64,000 bases of DNA from Thiohalorhabdus denitrificans. GTDB lineage: Bacteria > Pseudomonadota > Gammaproteobacteria > Thiohalorhabdales > Thiohalorhabdaceae. Below, in pieces: positions 4,297 to 42,341 of the stretch. Location of the stretch: positions 62,001 to 126,000 of the forward strand of contig NZ_LJCP01000009.1 in the NCBI RefSeq assembly GCF_001399755.1, given 5' to 3'. Made by a program: the position numbers and the translations under genes. Position 1 is the first letter of the stretch; the number at the start of each line of letters is the position of its first letter. The notes below the pieces were generated by a model. It made no database searches, was not told the DNA's origin, and was given only the letters and a program-made list of their open reading frames with translations.

Positions 4297-7293
4297 ATGC
4301 CGAAATCCGCCCAGACAGGGCGCCTGCGCAGCCCATCTCGGGCCCGTGTGTCAGCCGCCGGGAAGGCCGGCCCCTTGGCCGGCCTTTTCCTGGGGCTGGT
4401 GGCCGTGTCCGAAACGGCGGTGGGTCTCGGGCTGGGAAAGCTCGAGGTCGAATCGAGGCTCGGCAGTCCCTTGCACGCGGAAGCGCCCGTCCACCTGAGC
4501 GGTCAGGAGTCCGCTACCTCTTTGGAAGTGGCCCTGGCGTCCGCCGAAGATTACCGGATGGTGGGCCAAACCCCGGCGCCGATCGTCCGGCAGCTGGAGG
4601 TGCGCCTGTTGGGCGGGGAGCCTCCGCGGATCGTCCTGCTCAGCTCTGAGCCCCTCCATGCCCCCCTTTTCGAGGTCATGGTCCGGATTGGTGACGGGGA
4701 CAACCAAGTCCTGAAGATGTTCACCGTGGCCCTGGACCCGGCCCGGGCGGCCCCGCCCGAGGCGAAGGCCTCCGCCTCCCAATCCGCTGGCTCGGGATCC
4801 TCAGGGGGCGCTGGTACGAAGCCTCGCCCCGCCACCGCTTCGGCGGCACGGGAAGTCTCCGCCCCCCGCGGTGGGGAGCCGGCCGTTGAGCGCCCCGCGG
4901 TGGAGGTGACTGAGGGGTGGGCCAAGCGCGACCGCTACGGTCCGGTGCGTCCCGGGGACACCCTGGCCACCGTCGTTCAACGGGTCCGTCAGGACGCCTC
5001 GGTGCCCATGGAGTCGGCGCTCGTAGCGGTCTGGAAGGATAATCCCGAGGCCTTCGTGGACGGCAACATGAACCTGCTCCGGCGGGGGGCGGTTCTGGAC
5101 CTCCCCGGAGAGGAACGCATCCGCCGCATCTCCGTGGAGGAGGCGGAGAGCCTGATCGCCGAGCAGCGCCGCGAGTGGGAAGAACGGGGGCAGCCGGGTG
5201 CCGATCCCAACCCCGGCCATGAGCGCTACCACCTCAAGGTGGGGCTGGACCGGGACGATAATGGAGCGCCCACCGCCTCCACGGAACCCGATTCCTCCGA
5301 GTCGGGGGATGACCCCGAGGAGGAAAAGAAGCCGGAAGAGGGAAAGGGGGAAGAAGAGCCCGAACAGGCTGAGCCGCCCGAGAAGGGGGAGGACTCCGAG
5401 GGCCCTGCGAAAGGGGAAGACCCCGAACAGGCGGAGTCTCCGGGGGAAGCAGAGGATCCCTCGGAGTCCGAGCCCGTCGCCGGGGATTCCCGGGACGGGG
5501 GCAGCCTCCAGGAGGCCGCCGTAGAGGCCGGCAAGGATATTGCCGGGGAAGGGGCCGCGGGCGAGCAGCCCGGGCTGGCGGTGGCCGAGGAGGTGCAGGC
5601 CGACCTGGAGGAGCTGCGCGGTTCCCTGGAGGACCGGCGCAGCTCCATGCAGACCACCATCGGCTCCTTGGAGGACCGTCTTACCTCCCTGAACGAGCGC
5701 CTGGACCAGCAGAGCGCCCTGATCGACAAGCAGAGCGAGACCATGTCCGCCATGGCCACTCGCCCGGCGGACGATGGCGGTATGCCGAGTCGTGACCGGT
5801 ACACCCTCTGGGGGCTGGCCGGGGTGAATCTGCTCATGCTCCTCGCCATCCTAGCCCTATGGCGGAAGGTGAGCGGAGGGCCAAGGGGCACCCCTCCGCC
5901 CTCCGGGGATGGGGGGCTGGATGGGTCCGACGGGGCCATGGAGGACCTCGATCCCTTGACCCGGGCCAACGCCCAGGCGGCAGCGGGGGAGCTCAAACAG
6001 GCCCGTTCCACCCTCTGGCAGGCGCTGGCCCTGGAGCCCCAGAACTGGGCCCTGTACGGGCGCCTCCTGGACCTTTACGAAGAGGAATGGGACGGAGACC
6101 AGTTCGAGGAGGTGGCCCGCCGCCTCTTCTCCCAGCTGGGGGATTCCCATCCGGATTGGCAGGAGGAGATCCGCTGGCGTGGTCGGCAGCTCAAGCCCGA
6201 GAGCACCCTGTTCGCCGGCCTGGGCCATTCCACTCCGGTCGCAGGGTCGGAGGCAGGCGGCGCGGCGAAGGGCGACGAAGGCCCTTCCTTCGACATGGAC
6301 GACTTCGATTTGGGTTTGTCCTCGGAGGCGGGGGCCGCGAACGAGTCTGCGCCGCCTTCCCCCGCGCCGACAACTGAACCGGAGTCCGGCGGGAATGCCG
6401 CTGCGGCGATGGGGGAGCCGGAGCCGGAAGATGACTTGGTCTTCAGCTTTGGGGACGAGCCCCAGGCCGAGGAGGAGCCGGTTCCCGCCCCGGATAAAGG
6501 GACCACGGGGGTGGCTTCCGCCGAAGCGGCGGGCACCTCTCTGGAGGAGGACCTGAGTCTGTCCCTGGATGGGGACGCTACGGAGCCCTCCTCCGCCTCC
6601 AACGGTCACGAATCGGGTACCGGGGAGGCCGGGGAGCATGCCGATCTGGCCCTGAATATGGACACCGGGGGCGGGTCGGACGAGCTTACCGCCGACCTCT
6701 CCGGGGCGTCGGCCCCGGTGGACTCTTCGGAGCCCACACCTTCGCGGGTGGGCTCCGGGGCAGCGGATGATGGCGGCAACGAGCTGGAATTCGATCTCGG
6801 CCTTGACGCCGGCAGCGAGGATTCCGGGTCGGCCGGGGAAGAGGATCTGGAATGGGCCGCCCCGGAGGGCTCGACCGGGAACGGACCCGAGGTCGCGGAT
6901 GACGGCCTCGAATTCGACCTCGGGTCGCTTGAAGAGGAAGGCCCTGCCCCTTCCCCCTCGGCCCCGGAGGCCACCGCGCCCAATGACGGCGCGGATGACC
7001 TGGACCTTTCGCTGTCCGATCTGTCCGGGGAAGGGCCGTCCGGCGGGGCTCAGGACGAGTCCTGGCTGGATCTCGATGCCTCCGGCGGCAACGAGGCCGG
7101 CGGAAGCGGTCCCGTTCCCGGCGAAGGCGGGGAGCCGGATGACAATGAGCTCGATATCAAGCTGGACCTCGCCCGCGCGTGGATCGATATGGGCGACCCC
7201 GAGTCGGCCCGGGGCCTGCTCCAGGAGGTGGAATCCCAGGGGGAGACGGAGCAGCAGGAGCGTGCGCGCCAGCTCCTGGCCTCCTTGTCCTGA
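4297..7293 (+). CDS. fimV: FimV-type polar hub protein
   Basis: FimV family proteins are inner-membrane proteins that bind peptidoglycan and organise cell-pole assemblies such as type IV pili. The 998-residue product has a signal-like hydrophobic stretch at about 25-45. The FimV N-terminal domain (VESRLGSPLHAEAPVHLSG) follows, with a LysM-like segment at about 209-270 (YGPVRPGDTLATVV). A coiled-coil-like region precedes a single membrane segment at about 502-523. The cytoplasmic part starts with a TPR-like section, runs into a long acidic linker with repeated ELEFDLG-like motifs, and ends in the FimV C-terminal domain (NELDIKLDLARAWIDMGD). It stands between asd and truA as in many gammaproteobacteria. 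The assignment is firm. Confidence 0.93.
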   Translation: MPKSAQTGRLRSPSRARVSAAGKAGPLAGLFLGLVAVSETAVGLGLGKLEVESRLGSPLHAEAPVHLSGQESATSLEVALASAEDYRMVGQTPAPIVRQLEVRLLGGEPPRIVLLSSEPLHAPLFEVMVRIGDGDNQVLKMFTVALDPARAAPPEAKASASQSAGSGSSGGAGTKPRPATASAAREVSAPRGGEPAVERPAVEVTEGWAKRDRYGPVRPGDTLATVVQRVRQDASVPMESALVAVWKDNPEAFVDGNMNLLRRGAVLDLPGEERIRRISVEEAESLIAEQRREWEERGQPGADPNPGHERYHLKVGLDRDDNGAPTASTEPDSSESGDDPEEEKKPEEGKGEEEPEQAEPPEKGEDSEGPAKGEDPEQAESPGEAEDPSESEPVAGDSRDGGSLQEAAVEAGKDIAGEGAAGEQPGLAVAEEVQADLEELRGSLEDRRSSMQTTIGSLEDRLTSLNERLDQQSALIDKQSETMSAMATRPADDGGMPSRDRYTLWGLAGVNLLMLLAILALWRKVSGGPRGTPPPSGDGGLDGSDGAMEDLDPLTRANAQAAAGELKQARSTLWQALALEPQNWALYGRLLDLYEEEWDGDQFEEVARRLFSQLGDSHPDWQEEIRWRGRQLKPESTLFAGLGHSTPVAGSEAGGAAKGDEGPSFDMDDFDLGLSSEAGAANESAPPSPAPTTEPESGGNAAAAMGEPEPEDDLVFSFGDEPQAEEEPVPAPDKGTTGVASAEAAGTSLEEDLSLSLDGDATEPSSASNGHESGTGEAGEHADLALNMDTGGGSDELTADLSGASAPVDSSEPTPSRVGSGAADDGGNELEFDLGLDAGSEDSGSAGEEDLEWAAPEGSTGNGPEVADDGLEFDLGSLEEEGPAPSPSAPEATAPNDGADDLDLSLSDLSGEGPSGGAQDESWLDLDASGGNEAGGSGPVPGEGGEPDDNELDIKLDLARAWIDMGDPESARGLLQEVESQGETEQQERARQLLASLS

Positions 7294-21833: not shown

Positions 21834-24764
21834 TCATCCCTGAAGTGCGGCAAGCCGCTCGCGCTGGTCCCGGAGCTGTTGTTGCCGGGATTCGAACTCC
21901 GCCAGCTTCTCGCGCTCTTTGTCCACCACGTCCTCCGGGGCCTTGTCGCGGAAGCTGGGGTTGTCCAGCTTCTTGCGGCTGCGCTCCAGGTCGGCGTCCA
22001 CCTTCTCCAGCTCCTTGTCCAGGCGCTGGATCTCGGCCTCCACGTCGATAAGGCCTTCCAGGGGTACCAGCACCTGGAGGTCGCCGGCCAGGCCGGTGGC
22101 GGATTGTGGCGGCTCCTCGCCTTCCGGCACCCAATCCAGGGATTCGGGCCGGGTCAGCGCATCGATGAAGATCCGGTGCTCCTCCACCCGCTGCCGGTCG
22201 CGCTCCCCACCGCTGCGCAGGAGCAGGGGAATGGCCTGGTTCGGGTTGATGTTCATCTCGCCGCGAATGGAGCGCACTGCACCCACGAAGGCCTCCAGCC
22301 ACTCGAACTCGGCCTCCGCGTCCGAATCCATGCGGCCCTCGTCCGCCTCAGGGTAGGGCTGGCGCATGATGGTCTCGCCCTCCCGGCCCGCCAGGGGGGC
22401 CACCTTCTGCCAGATCTCCTCGGTGATGAAGGGCATGAAGGGGTGCAGCAGGCGGAGGCTAGCCTCCAGGACTCGGATCATGGTGCGCCGGGCGCTCTCG
22501 GCCGCCTCGCGGTCGTCACCGTTCAGGGCGGGCTTCACCAGCTCCAGGTACCAGTCGCAGTAGCTGTGCCAGATGAAGTCGTAGGCGGCGTGGGCGGCGT
22601 CATTGAAGCGGTAGGCGGCCATGGCCTCGGCCACCTCCGCCTCGGTGCGCTGCAGGCGGGAGACGATCCAGCGGTCCGCCCAACCGGGCGCGGTATCCGC
22701 CGCGGGCGGCTCGGTGACGTTCATCAGGTTGAAGCGGGCAGCGTTCCAGAGCTTGGTGCAGAAGTTGCGGTAGCCCTCGATGCGGCCCAGGTCGAACTTG
22801 ATGTCGCGGCCCATGGTGGCCAGCGAGGCGAAGGTGAAGCGCAGGGCGTCGGCGCCGAAGGCGGGGATGCCGTCGGGGAACTCCTTGCGGGTCATCTTCT
22901 CGATGGCCTTGGCCTTGGCCGGCTGCATCATGGCGCTGGTGCGCTTCTCCACCAGCGCCTCCAGGTCGATGCCGTCGATGAGGTCCAGGGGGTCGAGGAC
23001 GTTGCCCTTGGACTTGCTCATCTTGTTGCCCTCGGAGTCGCGCACCAGGCCGTGCACGTACACTTCCTCGAAGGGCACGTCGTCCATGAACTTCAGCCCC
23101 ATCATGATCATGCGGGCCACCCAGAAGAAGATGATGTCGAAGCCGGTGACCAGCACGGAGGTGGGGTAGAAGGTTGCCAGCTCCTTGGTGTCCTCCGGCC
23201 AGCCCAGGGTGGAGAAGGGCCACAGCGCCGAGGAGAACCAGGTGTCCAGGACGTCCGGATCCTGGATCAGGTGGCGACCGCCGCAGTGGGGGCAGTCCTC
23301 CGGTCGGTCCTGGCCGTCCTCCGGCACCAAGGGGGTGGCCTCCGTGCCCACGCTGACGTGCTCGACCTGGTCCAGGACCTCCTTGAGGTCGAAATCGTGG
23401 TACTTGAGCCAGGCCGGGGAGGCCGGACCCACCTTGACCCCGTCCAGCTCCAGGTCGTGGGCGGCCAGCTTCAGGTGGTTCTCGTCGCAGTCGGCGCAGT
23501 ACCAAACCGGCACCCGGTGGCCCCACCAGATCTGGCGGGAGATGCACCAGTCCTCCAGGTTGTGCATCCACTCGAAATAGGTCTTGGCCCAGTTCTCGGG
23601 CACGAAGCGGATGTCGCCGGTCTCCACCGCCTCGATGGCGGGTTTGGCCAGTGGGCCCACCTTCACGAACCACTGGTCGGTGAGGAAGGGCTCGATGACC
23701 GTCCCCGAACGATCGCCGCGGGGCACCATGAGGTTGTGGTCCTCCACCGCCTCCATCAGGCCCTGTCCCTCCAGGTCCGCCACCACCCGCTCCCGGGCCT
23801 CGTAGCGGTCCAGGCCGCGGTAGGCAGGCGGGGCGTTGTGATTGATGCGGGCGTCGTCGGTGAGGATGTTGAGCATGGGCAGGTCATGGCGCCGGCCCAT
23901 CTCGTAGTCGTTGAAGTCGTGGGCCGGGGTAATCTTCACGCAACCGCTGCCGAACTCGGGGTCCACGTACTCGTCGGCGATCACCGGGATCTCCCGCTCC
24001 GCCAGGGGCAGGCGGATGGTCTTGCCGATGAGGTGGGTGTAGCGCTCGTCCTCGGGGTGCACCGCCACGGCCTGGTCGCCGAGCATGGTCTCCGGGCGGG
24101 TGGTGGCCACGGTGACGTGGCCCGAGCCGTCGGCCAGGGGGTAGCGGAAGTGCCAGAGGTGGCCGGGCTCCTCCTCGGACTCCACCTCCAGGTCGGAGAT
24201 GGCGGTGTGCAGCACGGGGTCCCAGTTCACCAGGCGCTGACCGCGGTAGATGAGCCCCTCGCGGTACAGGCGCACGAAGACCTCGTTCACCGCGCGGGAC
24301 AGGCCCTCGTCCATGGTGAAGCGCTCGCGCGACCAGTCGGCGCTGGCGCCCATGCGCCGCAGCTGCTGGGTGATGACGTTGCCGGAGGTCTCCTTCCATT
24401 CCCAGACACGCTCCACGAAGGCCTGCCGGCCCAGGTCATGGCGGGTCTGTCCCTCCTGCTCCAGCTGGCGCTCCACCACCATCTGGGTGGCGATGCCGGC
24501 GTGGTCGGAGCCCGGCTGCCACAGGGTGCGGTGGCCGCGCATGCGGTGATAGCGGGTCAGGGCATCCATGAGGGTGTCCTGGAAGGCGTGCCCCATGTGC
24601 AGCGTGCCGGTGACGTTGGGCGGCGGGATCATGATGGCGAAGGGCGGCGCCTCCGCCCCCAGGTCGGGGCTGAAGTAGCCGCTGGCCTCCCAGTGGGTGT
24701 ACCACCGGGTCTCCACCTCCTTGGGGTCGTAGGTCTTGGGCAGGGAATCGGATGGCTGCGTCAT
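21834..24764 (-). CDS. valS: Valine--tRNA ligase
   Basis: ValS charges tRNA-Val. The 976-residue class I synthetase begins [19 protein letters not shown] and has the HIGH-type motif in [10 protein letters not shown] and the KMSKS loop in [17 protein letters not shown]. The editing domain occupies the middle, and the C-terminal coiled-coil arm is rich in charged residues ([19 protein letters not shown]). Cysteine pairs YCADC and CPHCGG lie between. The gene is the last of the pepA-holC-[PopZ-like]-valS group but is separated from the PopZ-like gene by a terminator, so it probably has its own promoter in the 87 bp before the ATG. Confidence 0.98.
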
Positions 24765-24851: not shown

Positions 24852-24883
24852 AAAAAGCCCCCGATCCGGCGGATCGAGGGGCT
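24852..24883 (-). terminator. Rho-independent terminator after the PopZ-like gene
   Basis: Read on the minus strand, a stem of about 12 bp (AGCCCC[T]CGATCC paired with GGATCGGGGGCT, loop GCC) is followed by five T residues (plus-strand A run 24852-24856). It lies about 30 bp after the stop of the PopZ-like gene and before valS. Confidence 0.85.
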
Positions 24884-24912: not shown

Positions 24913-25869
24913 CTATTCCCCCCGCTTGATGCGCTCGATCTCCGCCTCGGCCAGTTCGCGCAGCAGCTCGGGAAGCCGCTGCTGCAGATAGCCCTCCAGG
25001 GCCTCCCGAATCTTGGGCTCCAGGGCCGTGGCCAGGGCCGAATCCAGGTCGGCGGTGGCCTTGGCTACCTGCTCGCTTAAGGTCTGCTCCACCGTTTCCC
25101 GCAGCGCGGCCTCATCCACCTCCGGCGCGGTAGGGGCCGCCGGGGAAGGCTCGGAGGCGGGGGCAGCCGCTCCCGAGGCCGGTGCGGCCGCCTCCGGGGC
25201 GGGAGATTCCGGAGGCTCGGGGGCGGGCTCCTCGGGGAGGTCCAGGTCGCCTACCTCGGTTGCCGGTCCCGGAGCGATGGGGGAGGGCTCGTCAGCGGGG
25301 CTTCCGGCGGCCTCCGTCGCCGTCTCACCGCCGAACGGGGCTGTGCCGGCGGTGTCCAGGGACGGGGCTTCCGGGGCGGGCGCGCTGGGCTCCTCGTCGA
25401 GGGGAAACGCCGGGCCCTTGGCGGCGGCCTCGGCCCCGGCGGGATCGCGCTCGGGACCGGAGGGGTCCGGTTCCTGCTGGTCCGAACCCGCGGAGCCCCA
25501 GTCCTCGAACATGCCGTCGATCTGGGAGGTCGCTGACGAGGCGGCGGGGGTCTGTTCCTCCTGGCCGTCGAGCTGGAGATCCTCCAGGCCGCCGATATCG
25601 CCCTGGGAGTCCTCCTCCCCGGACGGGGCGGAGGGCTCGGTGGTCGAAGGGGGTGGGTCCTCCTCCACCACCTCGGTGAGCAGGAGCTCCTCGCCGTCGT
25701 CCTGATCCTGTCGGGATCCGGGCTCGGCGGGGGGGTTCGGGGGTTCGGACTGGTCCTCCTCCAGGATGCTGCGGAGGCTGGTCAGGATCTCGTCCATGCT
25801 GATGTCCGAGTCGGCACCCTGACCCGGGTGCTCGGGAGAAGCCGATTGGTTGCGTTCTTGATCCGCCAT
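24913..25869 (-). CDS. PopZ-like (DUF2497) protein
   Basis: The 318-residue product has three parts. Residues 21-38, SDISMDEILTSLRSILEE, match the N-terminal helix motif of the DUF2497/PopZ family (pattern MEEIL-SIR-II-ED). Residues 39-249 are a linker dominated by Glu, Asp, Pro, Ala, Gly and Ser with almost no aromatics. Residues 250-318 form a helical block ending in LPELLRELAEAEIERIKRG, resembling the PopZ oligomerisation end (LP-LVE-LV-AEIERI). PopZ is the alphaproteobacterial pole organiser. In Caulobacter the linker is far shorter (about 80 residues). As I recall, alphaproteobacterial popZ also lies beside valS. The family call rests on the two conserved ends; a pole role here is inference. 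Confidence 0.75.
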   Translation of the reverse strand: MADQERNQSASPEHPGQGADSDISMDEILTSLRSILEEDQSEPPNPPAEPGSRQDQDDGEELLLTEVVEEDPPPSTTEPSAPSGEEDSQGDIGGLEDLQLDGQEEQTPAASSATSQIDGMFEDWGSAGSDQQEPDPSGPERDPAGAEAAAKGPAFPLDEEPSAPAPEAPSLDTAGTAPFGGETATEAAGSPADEPSPIAPGPATEVGDLDLPEEPAPEPPESPAPEAAAPASGAAAPASEPSPAAPTAPEVDEAALRETVEQTLSEQVAKATADLDSALATALEPKIREALEGYLQQRLPELLRELAEAEIERIKRGE

Positions 25870-25936
25870 GCTCGATTCCTTGGAACCGCGATCCGGGAAG
25901 TGGGGGGATCAGTATCGGGCCGGCAAACGCCGGCTG

Positions 25937-26377
25937 TCAATTGACCCGCAGGTCGTGGGTGTGCAGCTCGAAGCCGCTCTCCCGGTAGGCCTTGTAGCGG
26001 CTCCGCGCCGCCTCGCGGCCCGCGGAGTCGGGGGGGACGAACTCCGCGACCCGCTGGAAGCCGGACAGGCATTCCATAGGGGGTGGGCTCGCGCAGACCA
26101 GGACCTGGGCCCCGCCGGGATCGGCGCAGTCCGAGGCCAGGACCACCGGCTCCGGGGCCTCCGGGTCCCGGTGCTCCAGGCGGGCGTGGGGGACGAAGCT
26201 GCCCGCCCGGTAGGTCCACAGGCGGGTATCCAGGTCGCTCAACAGGGCCTCGGAGGTCGCCAAAACCAGTACCCCGTAGCCCGATGCGTACGCCTTGCCG
26301 GCCACCATGCAGGCGGCGCGTGGTACGGCGTCGCCGTCTTCTCCGCCGAGGCGGAAGAAGTCCACGCGGGTGGTCAT
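25937..26377 (-). CDS. holC: DNA polymerase III chi subunit
   Basis: HolC (chi) links the clamp loader of DNA polymerase III to single-strand-binding protein. The 146-residue product begins RVDFFRLGGEDGDAVPRAAC and has the LDTRLWTYRAGSFVPHARL core and the ERFQRVAEFVP-type region typical of the family. The ATG overlaps the pepA stop by four bases, the standard pepA-holC coupling of proteobacteria. The PopZ-like gene begins 67 bp downstream. Confidence 0.92.
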   Translation of the reverse strand: MTTRVDFFRLGGEDGDAVPRAACMVAGKAYASGYGVLVLATSEALLSDLDTRLWTYRAGSFVPHARLEHRDPEAPEPVVLASDCADPGGAQVLVCASPPPMECLSGFQRVAEFVPPDSAGREAARSRYKAYRESGFELHTHDLRVN

Positions 26378-27864
26378 CCGGCGGCGCGCTCCACCAAGTA
26401 CTGGCTGATCATGCGGACCGGATGGCCCGTGGCGGACTTGTCGTCGCCGCTCTTCCAGGCCACCCCCGCGATGTCCACGTGGGCCCACTCGTAGTCCTCG
26501 GTGAACCGGGACAGGAAGCAGCCGGCGGTGATGGTCCCCGCTTCCCGGCCGCCTACGTTCTTCATGTCGGCGAAGTTGCTCTTGAGCTGTTCCTGGTAGT
26601 CGTCCCAGAGGGGCAGCTGCCATCCCCGCTCGCCCGTCTCGTCGCCGGCGTCCATGAGCTCGCGGACCAGGCGGTCGTTGTTGCCCATCAGCCCGGCGGC
26701 GTTCTTGCCCAGGGCCACCAGGCAGGCACCGGTGAGGGTCGCCATGTCGATCACCACCCGCGGGTCGTAGCGCTGGATCCAGGTCAGGGCGTCGGCCAGG
26801 ACCAGGCGGCCCTCCGCGTCGGTGTTGATGACCTCGATGGTCTGGCCGGACTTGGAGGTGAGGATGTCGCCGGGGCGATAGGCCTGCCCATCCGGCAGGT
26901 TCTCCGCCGCCGCCGCCACCCCCACCACGTTGATGGGCAGCTGCAGCTCGGCGATGGTACGCATGATGCCGAACACCCCGGCGGCGCCGCACATATCGTA
27001 CTTCATCTCGTCCATGGCCGCGGCGGGCTTGATGGAGATGCCGCCGGAATCGAAGGAGATCCCCTTGCCCACCAGGACGTAGGGCTTGTCGCCCTTGGCC
27101 CCGCCCTGGTACTCCATGGCCATCAGTCGGGGCGGGTTCACCGAGCCCTTGCCCACCGCCAGGAAGGCCCCCATGCCCTCCTTTTCCAGCTGCTTTTCGT
27201 CGAGCACGGTGAGCCCCAGGTCCCACTCCTTGGCGAGCTCCTCGGCGTGCTCGGCCAGATAGGCGGGCGTGGCCACGTTGGGCGGCTGGTTGGCCAGGTC
27301 GCGGGCCTCCATGACCCCATTGGCGTAGGCGAGGCCCCGGTCCACGGCCACCTGGCCGTCACGGAGGTCGCTGCGGCGGGGTACGCAGAAGGTCAGCCGC
27401 CGCAGGGGGCGGCGGGGCTTATCCGTCTTCGACTTGTACTGGTCGAAGCGGTAGAGGGCCAGGGCCCCGGATTCCGTGGCGGCCCGCACCTTCCACTCGA
27501 TCTCCCGGCCCTTGACGTGGAGCTCGGGGAAGTAGACCACCGCCTCCATGGAGCCGGTGCCGTCCAGGTGCTTGACCAGCGCCTCCACCGTCTCCCGGTA
27601 GCGCTTGTCGTCGAGGTCGCGCTCCTTGCCCATGCCCACGAGAAGGACGCGATCCGGTAGGATATTGGGCAGGTTGTGGAGCATGAGGAACTGCCCCTGG
27701 CGCCCCTCCAGGTCTCCGCGGCGAAGGAGCTTGGTCAGATAGCCGTCCGTGGCCCGGTCGATGTCACGGGCTGCCGGGGATAGCCGCCGGGGCTCGAAAA
27801 CGCCCACCACCACGCAGGCGGTTCGCTGTTTCTCGGGGCTGCCGCTCTTGATGAAGACTTCCAT
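26374..27864 (-). CDS. pepA: Leucyl aminopeptidase
   Basis: PepA is a hexameric, two-metal M17 aminopeptidase that removes N-terminal residues; in E. coli it also binds DNA in Xer recombination. The 496-residue product carries the metal and catalytic segments VGKGISFDSGGISIKP, KYDMCGAAGV and the signature NTDAEGRLVLADAL. The N-terminal macro-like domain spans about 1-160. The ATG at 27864 gives a normal start (MEVFIKSGSPEKQRT). It heads the pepA-holC unit and is divergent from lptF, a conserved gammaproteobacterial arrangement. Confidence 0.97.
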   Translation of the reverse strand: MEVFIKSGSPEKQRTACVVVGVFEPRRLSPAARDIDRATDGYLTKLLRRGDLEGRQGQFLMLHNLPNILPDRVLLVGMGKERDLDDKRYRETVEALVKHLDGTGSMEAVVYFPELHVKGREIEWKVRAATESGALALYRFDQYKSKTDKPRRPLRRLTFCVPRRSDLRDGQVAVDRGLAYANGVMEARDLANQPPNVATPAYLAEHAEELAKEWDLGLTVLDEKQLEKEGMGAFLAVGKGSVNPPRLMAMEYQGGAKGDKPYVLVGKGISFDSGGISIKPAAAMDEMKYDMCGAAGVFGIMRTIAELQLPINVVGVAAAAENLPDGQAYRPGDILTSKSGQTIEVINTDAEGRLVLADALTWIQRYDPRVVIDMATLTGACLVALGKNAAGLMGNNDRLVRELMDAGDETGERGWQLPLWDDYQEQLKSNFADMKNVGGREAGTITAGCFLSRFTEDYEWAHVDIAGVAWKSGDDKSATGHPVRMISQYLVERAAG

Positions 27865-38076: not shown

Positions 38077-38481
38077 TCACTTCTCCCCGCAGCGCGGACC
38101 GATGAGGGGATAACGGAAGGGTTGGCCGGCCATGGCGCGGGTCAGGCCGATGACCCCGAACAGGATGAACATGGAGTGCACGCAGGTGATGTACAGGATC
38201 AGGAGCACCCAGGTGGCGGGCCGGTCGAAGCCGCCGACCCCGACGATGAGCAGGGCCGCCGCCCCGATCAGGATCCCCGCCCAGATGCTTGCCGCCACCG
38301 CCTGGCGCAGGTGGCAGGCAGCGAGGGGGGAGGCCGTGGGCCCTCGGGTGAGGAACAGCCACAGCAGGAGGCCGAAGCCGAGGACCGGGGCCGGCAGGAG
38401 GTTGACCAGGTAGAGGGCCTCGGCCCAGACGGCCAGGCGGCGGTCGCCGGGGGCGGAACGGTCAGTCGCCGAGGACTGCAT
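38077..38481 (-). CDS. DUF4870-like membrane protein in the nor cluster
   Basis: The 134-residue product has three to four membrane segments. It shares with the C-terminal half of the gene at 42413-43054 an HLRQA/NFQIS-type loop and the terminal motif QPFRYPL, which is the DUF4870 signature. No catalytic motif is visible. It overlaps norQ by 20 bp, so it is probably translated from the same message, and a role in nitric oxide reductase assembly is suggested by position alone. The ATG at 38481 is the first in frame. Confidence 0.78.
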   Translation of the reverse strand: MQSSATDRSAPGDRRLAVWAEALYLVNLLPAPVLGFGLLLWLFLTRGPTASPLAACHLRQAVAASIWAGILIGAAALLIVGVGGFDRPATWVLLILYITCVHSMFILFGVIGLTRAMAGQPFRYPLIGPRCGEK

Positions 38482-39271
38482 GCACCACCTCCATCAGGCC
38501 ATCCAGGGTCTCGGTGTCGTCGCTTAGGGGCTCCACCAGCGCGTTCTCGCAGGCGGCCACCGGGTCGAAGCCGTCGCGGATCAGGGTGGCGGCGTGGACC
38601 ACCAGGCGGGTTGAGGCGGCCTCCTCGATGTCGTGGTCCTCCAGGCGGCGCATGCGGTTGGCCAGTTCCACCAGCTGGTCGGCCCTCTCGGCGTCCAGGC
38701 CGGTCTCGGTGACCACGATGTCGCGCTCGGCGGCGGGCTCGGGGAAGTTGAAGCGCAGCCCCACGAACCGCTGGCGGGTGCTGGTCTTCATGCCCTTCAG
38801 CAGGTTCTGGTAGCCGGGATTGTAGGACACCACCAGCATGAACTCCGGAGGGGCCTGCAGGGTCTCGCCGGTGCGGTCGATGGGCAGGATGCGGCGGTCG
38901 TCGGAGAGGGGGTGGAGGACCACGGTGGTGTCCTTGCGGGCCTCCACGACCTCGTCCAGGTAGCAGATCCCGCCCTCGCGGACTGCGCGGGTCAGGGGGC
39001 CGTCCGACCAGTAGGTGGCACCGTCGCCGATCAGGTGGCGGCCCACTAGGTCGGCCGCGGACAGATCGTCGTGGCAGGCCACGGTGTACAGGGGCCGTCC
39101 CAGCTCCGCGGCCATGTGCTCCACGAAACGGGTCTTGCCGCAGCCCGTGGGTCCCTTGATGAGCACCGGGAGCTGGTTGCGGTGGGCGTGCCGGAACACC
39201 TCCGTCTCCCGCCCCTGGGGGCGGTAGAAGGGGGTGTCCGGGGTGGCAGCGGCGAAGGCTTGCGTAGCCAT
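38462..39271 (-). CDS. norQ: Nitric oxide reductase activation ATPase NorQ
   Basis: NorQ is a MoxR-type AAA ATPase that acts with NorD in maturation of the NorB iron site. The 269-residue product has Walker A GPTGCGKT at residues 40-47, Walker B in GGICYLDEVVEARKD, and sensor 1 in MLVVSYNPGYQ. The segment VACHDDLSAADLVGRHLIGDG is characteristic of NorQ and CbbQ; the nor neighbours decide for NorQ. norF lies 20 bp upstream and the DUF4870-like gene overlaps its end. Confidence 0.95.
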   Translation of the reverse strand: MATQAFAAATPDTPFYRPQGRETEVFRHAHRNQLPVLIKGPTGCGKTRFVEHMAAELGRPLYTVACHDDLSAADLVGRHLIGDGATYWSDGPLTRAVREGGICYLDEVVEARKDTTVVLHPLSDDRRILPIDRTGETLQAPPEFMLVVSYNPGYQNLLKGMKTSTRQRFVGLRFNFPEPAAERDIVVTETGLDAERADQLVELANRMRRLEDHDIEEAASTRLVVHAATLIRDGFDPVAACENALVEPLSDDTETLDGLMEVVHAVLGD

Positions 39272-39291
39272 TGGGATCCTCCGGGATCGGG

Positions 39292-39576
39292 TCAGCTTCC
39301 GGCCAGTAGGAAGGCGGTGGCGATCAGCCCGCCCACGGCCGCCAGCCAGGCGCCGAGCACCAGGCGCCAGAGCGGCCGCACGCGGGCGAGCTCCATGTAG
39401 CGCCAGGCGATCAGGCGCCCCTTGAGCAGGGCGATCCCCAGGGCGCCGAAGATCAGGACCGGGCCCTCGACACCGAACTCGCCGATGGCGTAGGTGGCCC
39501 CGGTTAGGGCCAGCAGGAGCAGCCAGGTGGCGGTGGCGGCGGGCTCCGGGACGGTGGAACGGGCGAATCGGTTCAT
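39292..39576 (-). CDS. norF: NorF / cytochrome c oxidase subunit IV-like protein
   Basis: The 94-residue product has three membrane segments and the arrangement of the prokaryotic COX4 family (LLLLALTGATYAIGE, then GALGIALLKGRLIAWRYMEL). In Paracoccus, NorF is a small accessory membrane protein needed for full nitric oxide reductase activity. The gene begins 4 bp after the norE stop, giving the paired norEF. The symbol rests on position and size, as sequence conservation of NorF is low. Confidence 0.82.
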   Translation of the reverse strand: MNRFARSTVPEPAATATWLLLLALTGATYAIGEFGVEGPVLIFGALGIALLKGRLIAWRYMELARVRPLWRLVLGAWLAAVGGLIATAFLLAGS

Positions 39577-39580
39577 GGCG

Positions 39581-40171
39581 CTACCGCATCACGTAGACGA
39601 GGGGGAACAGGATCAGCCACACCAGATCCACCATGTGCCAGTAGGCGGCCCCCGTCTCCACGCCCGTGTGCTCGGCGGCGGTGTAGGCCCCGGCGCGGGC
39701 CTTGGCGGCCACCGCCGCCAGGATCACCATGCCCATGATCACGTGCATGAAGTGGAAGCCGGTCAGCGACAGGTAGAACATGTAGAAGGTGTTGGTGGAA
39801 AGTCGGATGCCTTCCCCGTAGTGGTGGACCAGCTCGGCGCCCTTCACCAGCAGGAAGGCCCCGCCTGTGGCCAGCGCCGCCAGCAGCCAGCGCTGGCAGG
39901 CGGCGGCGCCGCCGCGGCGGATGGCGCCGACCGCCCGCACCGCGAAGTAGCTTCCGGTGAGCAGCAGAGCGGTGTTGATCAGCCCGCCCGTGCGGTCGAG
40001 GTTCGCCTGGTACTGGTTGAACAGCGCCGGGTTGCCCGCGCGGGCGAAGGCGTAGGCGGCGAAGAAGACCCCGAATACCAACAGCTCGGCCAGGATGAAC
40101 ACCCACATGGCCAGGTCGCCGGGCGGGTAACGGCGCAGGCCGGCGGCCACGGGTTGCGGATCGGTGCGCAT
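39581..40171 (-). CDS. norE: NorE, cytochrome c oxidase subunit III-like protein
   Basis: The 196-residue product has five membrane segments of the heme-copper oxidase subunit III fold: LAMWVFILAELLVFGVFFAAY, then TNTFYMFYLSLTGFHFMHVIMG and YWHMVDLVWLILFPLVYVMR. NorE is an accessory protein for cytochrome-c-dependent nitric oxide reductase. The ATG at 40171 is preferred because the extension to 40231 reads into the inverted repeat upstream. It is separated from norB by 195 bp of structured, non-coding sequence. Confidence 0.92.
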   Translation of the reverse strand: MRTDPQPVAAGLRRYPPGDLAMWVFILAELLVFGVFFAAYAFARAGNPALFNQYQANLDRTGGLINTALLLTGSYFAVRAVGAIRRGGAAACQRWLLAALATGGAFLLVKGAELVHHYGEGIRLSTNTFYMFYLSLTGFHFMHVIMGMVILAAVAAKARAGAYTAAEHTGVETGAAYWHMVDLVWLILFPLVYVMR

Positions 40172-40187
40172 GGGCGCTTTCCCTGTG

Positions 40188-40314
40188 GGATCCACCGCGG
40201 AGCCGCAGGGACCCCGGCGGGGTCCGGCCACGGGGTGGGCCGAAATCGCCGCTCGGGGGGGAAGGGCGGACCGTTGCGGCCTCGCCGGGGTCCCTGCGGC
40301 TTCGCGGTGGATCC
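40188..40314. repeat. 35-bp near-perfect inverted repeat between norB and norE
   Basis: The 35 bases at 40188-40222 (starting GGATCCACCGCGG) are matched by the inverse of 40280-40314 (ending GCGGTGGATCC) at 33 of 35 positions, with a 57-bp spacer. As RNA it would form a very stable stem upstream of norE. No other copy was noticed in the window. It may be an inserted element or a processing and stability structure in the nor message. Confidence 0.8.
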
Positions 40315-40330
40315 GTCCTAAGAAGGGCCC

Positions 40331-40350
40331 GGAGGGGCACGGGCCCCTCC
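40331..40350 (-). terminator. GC hairpin just after norB
   Basis: GGAGGGGC (40331-40338) and GCCCCTCC (40343-40350) form a perfect 8-bp stem with a 4-base loop, 17 bp after the norB stop. On the minus strand only a weak run (CCCTTCTTA) follows, so complete termination is doubtful; partial attenuation between norCB and norEF is more likely. Confidence 0.4.
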
Positions 40351-40366
40351 AGGCGTCGCGGCGGTC

Positions 40367-42341
<1,975 letters not shown>

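Follow-up and report, generated by a model that had tools for sequence, protein, structure and literature searches.

The gene that lies between holC and valS in the window, i.e., the whole 64,000-nucleotide stretch of Thiohalorhabdus denitrificans DNA analysed here, encodes a genuine relative of the PopZ family, as is supported by the resemblance of both ends of its product to those of PopZ. No bacterial condensate or polar hub has been studied better than PopZ, which organises the cell poles of Caulobacter. In a recent paper it is stated to be found only in alphaproteobacteria (PMC9512792), and among the titles and abstracts recovered by searches of the open literature none reports PopZ for gammaproteobacteria or Magnetococcales. 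With its occurrence in a gammaproteobacterial genus, a known kind of protein gains a member from another class. The gene and the parts of its product are the following:

24913..25869, minus strand: popZ-like coding sequence, 318 aa (open reading frame; homologues in both congeners; hhalign matches to alphaproteobacterial PopZ at both ends)
25750..25800, minus strand: N-terminal helix H1 (SMDEILTSLRSILEEDQ, residues 24-40; NCBIfam PopZ_fam at a sub-threshold E of 7.9e-5, hhalign, AlphaFold2)
25657..25695, minus strand: short conserved motif ELLLTEVVEE (most positions invariant in the genus; aligned in the joined family alignment)
25114..25746, minus strand: disordered Glu/Pro/Ala-rich linker, residues 42-252 (composition; pLDDT; nothing in common with other PopZ linkers according to hhalign)
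24916..25113, minus strand: predicted C-terminal helical oligomerisation region, DUF2497-like, residues 253-318 (sub-threshold Pfam DUF2497 match, hhalign, AlphaFold2)

The open reading frame (25869..24913) starts with ATG, and its coordinates, strand and length, as well as its location between holC and valS, are as claimed in the earlier note. The N-terminal helix motif (SDISMDEILTSLRSILEE) and the C-terminal end (AEIERIKRG) pointed out there were found at residues 21-38 and 309-317, respectively, while the linker, described as Glu/Pro-rich, of about 210 residues and with hardly any aromatics, comprises 211 aa with 24% D+E, 19% P, a net charge of -47 and 4 aromatic residues. Homologues between the same flanking genes, 51% and 41% identical to the window protein, are present in the two remaining genomes of the genus (3/3 carry the gene; one of the two congeners is a MAG, with the match on contig JAHEOG010000118.1), and conservation is concentrated at the ends, in the first ~70 and the last ~65 residues. 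Homologues in both congeners, identical neighbours and end-weighted identity indicate that the reading frame is a gene and not a product of chance.

The AlphaFold2 model of the protein, obtained with a two-sequence input, bears out the expected helices at both ends: helix 25-40 has a pLDDT of about 82, and a single long helix, 253-316, has a pLDDT of 90-97. Between them lies the acidic, proline-rich linker, which is disordered, with block pLDDT values mostly of 39-55. The counterpart of H1 in Caulobacter PopZ is the client-binding region. The C-terminus of Caulobacter PopZ is predicted to form three helices, in contrast to the one long helix in this two-sequence model.

In single-sequence scans, the protein matched Pfam DUF2497 with 18.3 bits (E 0.0032, residues 253-316; curated cut-off 27 bits) and NCBIfam PopZ_fam with 24 bits (residues 24-74; curated cut-off 125 bits). 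Neither score reaches its cut-off, and taken literally the refuting condition of the earlier note, the lack of any profile match above threshold, would thus apply, but these are the sole Pfam and NCBIfam matches of the protein at E up to 10. Automatic annotation would miss such a gene, since the thresholds, which were tuned on alphaproteobacterial PopZ and concern detection rather than biology, are set too high for a relative this distant.

The comparison of profiles is more informative. The profile of the three congeners, aligned by hhalign to that of 25 alphaproteobacterial PopZ sequences, gave a probability of 93, E 3.7e-7 and a score of 44.2 for the N-terminal block, and a probability of 96, E 1.5e-9 and a score of 55.0 over 60 columns for the C-terminal block; the two matches are collinear, and each end is supported independently. 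The top scores of 150 column-shuffle controls were 30.4 and 25.2, and those of reversed profiles 13.0 and 15.3, for the N- and C-terminal block, respectively, and the PopZ architecture proposed in the earlier note is supported. The 26-residue H1 of the genus alone matched alphaproteobacterial H1 with E 7.5e-11, with controls far below. In a search of 177,635 PDB sequences with the three-congener profile, the best match and the only one with E below 0.1 (E 0.049) was 6xry, the Caulobacter polar organizing protein Z. A rival explanation, that the protein is low-complexity, acidic and unrelated, with PopZ-like ends due to chance or to helix-rich composition, would be in line with single-sequence scores under the curated cut-offs and with the fact that weaker comparisons can give non-specific matches between C-terminal amphipathic helices, as seen in reversed controls. 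We consider this explanation very improbable and already contradicted, as real scores far exceed those of shuffled and reversed controls at both ends, and the motif order and the neighbour gene agree as well.

The features shared by the window protein and alphaproteobacterial PopZ include the SM(E/D)EILxS(I/L)R helix, of which the window protein carries the SM(E/D)EILxSxR signature according to both hhalign and AlphaFold2, the LTxVV motif (ELLLTEVVEE being the counterpart of alphaproteobacterial DVLELTxVV), the acidic, proline-rich disordered linker, and the LPxLhxxLhxxEIER(I/V)xRG helices of the DUF2497-type C-terminal region, for which a profile-profile match and pLDDT values above 90 coincide. 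The identity over the joined conserved blocks is about 30%. The genes share a position directly upstream of valS, but the upstream neighbour of the window gene is holC, unlike that of alphaproteobacterial popZ.

The phylum-wide search also revealed PopZ-like proteins in a third class of Pseudomonadota, probably Magnetococcia. They are of about 500-990 aa and are encoded between a dacC-like gene and valS (loci L040, L043, L049, L052, and L053), and the joined profile matches 30 of 31 genomes of this class. They resemble the window protein in the PSMEEILASLEDLLDGE helix at the N-terminus, the LDLSGMEV motif, a similar C-terminus (LPxLLEExIREELERIKGG) and the presence of valS immediately downstream, although their H1 contains LEDL where alphaproteobacteria and the window genus have R. 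The genus profile matched that of the third class with E 1.1e-7 for H1 and E 3.5e-10 for the C-terminal region. Separate short proteins of 124-144 aa with tandem PopZ-type C-terminal regions, and with neither H1 nor linker, are encoded in two third-class loci (L058:5333-5764 and L042:5829-6200). Additionally, diverged PopZ-like proteins, mostly of one family (f214) and probably alphaproteobacterial, were found in loci L046, L047, L050, L051, L054, and L055; they carry the N-terminal sequence IEDVLSSIRRLVSE and the C-terminal sequence LRELVREIVREELQGxLGERITRNVRKLVRREI, and valS is not their direct neighbour where checked. Rhodobacter sphaeroides has no PopZ (PMC6414705).

The linker of the window protein is more than twice as long as that of Caulobacter PopZ (78 aa; PMC9512792), as the earlier note had it. 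However, in 25 alphaproteobacterial PopZ proteins the linker, delimited in the same way, has 67-204 aa. The 211 aa of the window protein lie only just above this range and well under the 384-827 aa of the acidic and often repetitive third-class linkers, and therefore a long linker is not unusual in itself. In composition the linker of the window protein is close to the Caulobacterales means of 29% acidic residues and 23% Pro (PMC9512792).

The genes and expression signals that surround popZ in the window are as follows:

21834..24764, minus strand: valS, valyl-tRNA synthetase, the linkage partner of popZ (open reading frame, tblastn, tree)
24858..24880, minus strand: putative intrinsic terminator in the popZ-valS interval (10-bp stem, CTTTTT tail)
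25911..25940, minus strand: putative sigma-70-type promoter TTGACA-N18-GATACT (1 found in the scan vs. 0.1 expected)
25937..26377, minus strand: holC, DNA polymerase III chi (PF04364, E 1e-31)
26374..27864, minus strand: pepA, leucyl aminopeptidase (open reading frame; tblastn matches at the same position in other gammaproteobacteria)

In all three congeners valS is directly downstream of the popZ-like gene. The popZ-valS neighbourhood of alphaproteobacteria, mentioned in the earlier note, is correct: among the 30 best popZ loci of that class (in a short stretch around each), valS follows directly downstream in 21. Adjacency to valS is a usual, not an obligatory, feature of popZ. With alphaproteobacteria, the third class and the window genus, popZ directly upstream of valS is found in three classes. 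The ValS of the window itself has, at residues about 424-498, an insertion that is absent from most other gammaproteobacterial ValS proteins and that was aligned through in one piece only with that of genome G063 (68% identical).

The -35 box of the promoter overlaps the holC stop codon, and in the three species both hexamers and the 18-nt spacing are identical, while the spacer sequence has diverged. The terminator proposed in the earlier note corresponds to a real hairpin (24880-24858), although about one hairpin of this type is expected by chance in the scanned region. In 3/3 species the popZ-valS interval has, in the same location, a hairpin with a T run behind it. The conserved promoter and hairpin suggest that popZ is probably a transcription unit of its own, whose regulation may differ from that of holC and valS. 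Mis-assigned alphaproteobacterial DNA, considered as a source of the gene, was ruled out, since the gene order of the window is gammaproteobacterial, with fimV present and lptF/lptG divergent from pepA-holC. Elsewhere in the window (about 38077-42040, minus strand), a gene for a CbbQ/NirQ/NorQ-type AAA ATPase lies beside an apparent nitric oxide reductase region, which suggests a denitrifier.

Among 369 gammaproteobacterial genomes, only the three congeners matched the joined profile (E 1.6e-13 to 2e-14). The next value was 0.0035, and the weak matches in 21 other genomes (E 0.0035-0.045) were taken as chance on the strength of their E-values, being about ten orders of magnitude off. Matches to DUF2497 outside the genus (loci L002 and L008) proved to be unrelated genes by the context of their reading frames.

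The gap between holC and valS is, nevertheless, often occupied in other gammaproteobacteria. Of the 47 other families in which holC and valS are linked, 25 have a reading frame with an (I/L)PxLxx(V/I) motif there; among gaps above 300 nt, these make up 25 of 27. The earlier note was right that an extra gene interrupts the pepA-holC-valS order, but given this survey the interruption is not peculiar to the window lineage. Examples of gaps with a small acidic unannotated gene are loci L112, L116, L119, L131, L147, L163, and L182. The gap genes are like the window popZ in position, strand, acidic linker and C-terminal amphipathic helices ending near LPEI; their IPxLxxVVxPG motif is comparable to LLLTEVVEE, and some families carry an H1-like helix (e.g., RLDDVLATLEEMLDG). 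Their products differ in being usually far shorter (84-200 aa) and in often missing H1, and their similarity to PopZ is seen by profile comparison only. Ten gap proteins have no Pfam or NCBIfam match above cut-off; for two of the gap proteins, DUF2497 is the top, insignificant Pfam match (E 0.023 and 0.029).

An alphaproteobacterium-heavy H1 HMM found nothing significant among these gap genes, and the informative comparison is that with third-class H1. The N-terminal helix of the gap genes of one order (that with RLDDVLATLEEMLDG) matched it with a probability of 89, E 2.6e-6 and a score of 23.2, whereas shuffles reached at most 11.8. For pooled gap genes, the probability was 87 (E 3.8e-6) for H1 against PopZ H1 and 80 (E 1.4e-5) for the C-terminal region; no shuffle reached either and the reversed controls were low, but the figures are optimistic, as H1 members were chosen by eye and six C-termini without the LP motif were dropped. 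In an unselected scan of gap-gene N-terminal regions, 4 of 18 families were significant, with a combined p of 2.7e-4 vs. 0.07 for the reversed control. The match of the gap-gene C-terminal profile to the genus (probability 54) was equalled by its reversed control and is not counted, and earlier comparisons of the gap-gene C-block with the genus alone were not specific. On balance, these profile similarities incline us to see the gap genes as diverged PopZ orthologues.

The uniqueness of a profile-recognisable PopZ to the window genus among the 369 sampled gammaproteobacterial genomes, and the closer match of its H1 to alphaproteobacterial than to third-class H1, could point to horizontal transfer from an alphaproteobacterium (or magnetococcus), with insertion in front of the native valS, either at random or through recombination at that gene. 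In the ValS tree (66 rows, N-terminal half of ValS), however, a 100/100 branch separates the genus, other gammaproteobacteria and the third class from alphaproteobacteria; the ValS of the genus is not alphaproteobacterial, and therefore the popZ-valS pair was not transferred together from an alphaproteobacterium. In the PopZ tree, which is based on 84 columns and has moderate support, a branch (89/92) sets all 24 rows from alphaproteobacteria apart from the genus. Moreover, a transferred gene would have landed only by coincidence at exactly the position, next to valS, that popZ holds elsewhere, and in many other gammaproteobacteria the same gap is filled by diverged candidates. Transfer is, in our opinion, unlikely. 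Both trees, together with the popZ-valS linkage in three classes, favour vertical inheritance of the PopZ of the genus rather than its recent acquisition, with loss or strong divergence elsewhere. Of the two possibilities raised in the earlier note, an independent or an ancestral pole-organising system, the latter fits better, and the shared valS neighbour suggests that the polar scaffold is older than the split of alpha- and gammaproteobacteria. A reasonably probable broader reading is that PopZ is ancestral to Pseudomonadota, with a rapidly evolving orthologue persisting unrecognised between holC and valS in about half of gammaproteobacterial families, and that the window genus has the ancestral form.

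We think it likely that the window protein is a true scaffold of the PopZ family, which goes back to a common ancestor with alphaproteobacteria and, probably, Magnetococcia, and that it acts as in Caulobacter. The usual polar organiser of gammaproteobacteria is FimV/HubP, and the window encodes it as well:

4297-7293, plus strand: FimV/HubP gene (FimV_N E 8e-17; FimV_Cterm 69.6 bits)

FimV/HubP is a large membrane protein with a FimV N-terminal domain and TPR, and has no sequence relation to PopZ; the genome carries genes for two proposed polar organisers. The main polar landmark here may not be PopZ, or the two systems may share the pole. A hallmark of PopZ is a polar condensate that excludes ribosomes. 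In PopZ, C-terminal helices self-associate, the acidic linker tunes this association and H1 binds clients (PMC9512792, PMC5182065). By analogy with the Caulobacter protein, the C-terminal helices of the window PopZ would self-associate into a network, which would stay fluid and outside the nucleoid owing to the highly acidic, proline-rich linker and would therefore gather at the cell ends, and the N-terminal helix would be displayed for clients, most plausibly the partition proteins ParB/ParA. The genome encodes ParB (E 7e-61). Rhizobial PopZ, however, does not fasten ParB (PMC5182065), and clients need not be conserved. We infer oligomerisation, condensation, polar position and clients from this analogy, with a polar, client-recruiting condensate as the most likely role.

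A PopZ homologue with no polar role, e.g., a disordered scaffold for HolC/replication or stress, with the pole organised by FimV/HubP, would suit the presence of the latter in the same window, the location of the gene next to holC and valS, and the variation of PopZ partners among alphaproteobacteria (PMC5182065). It appears rather improbable, as conservation in the protein is highest at the two functional ends, the gene has a putative promoter and terminator of its own, and its neighbour is the same as in alphaproteobacteria where PopZ is polar.

Given a clear PopZ in a gammaproteobacterial genus and the linkage to valS in three classes, PopZ is probably an ancestral trait rather than an invention of alphaproteobacteria. 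In many other gammaproteobacteria, an unannotated gene is a possible diverged counterpart of PopZ, and in a species encoding both PopZ and FimV/HubP the division of labour between them is open to testing.
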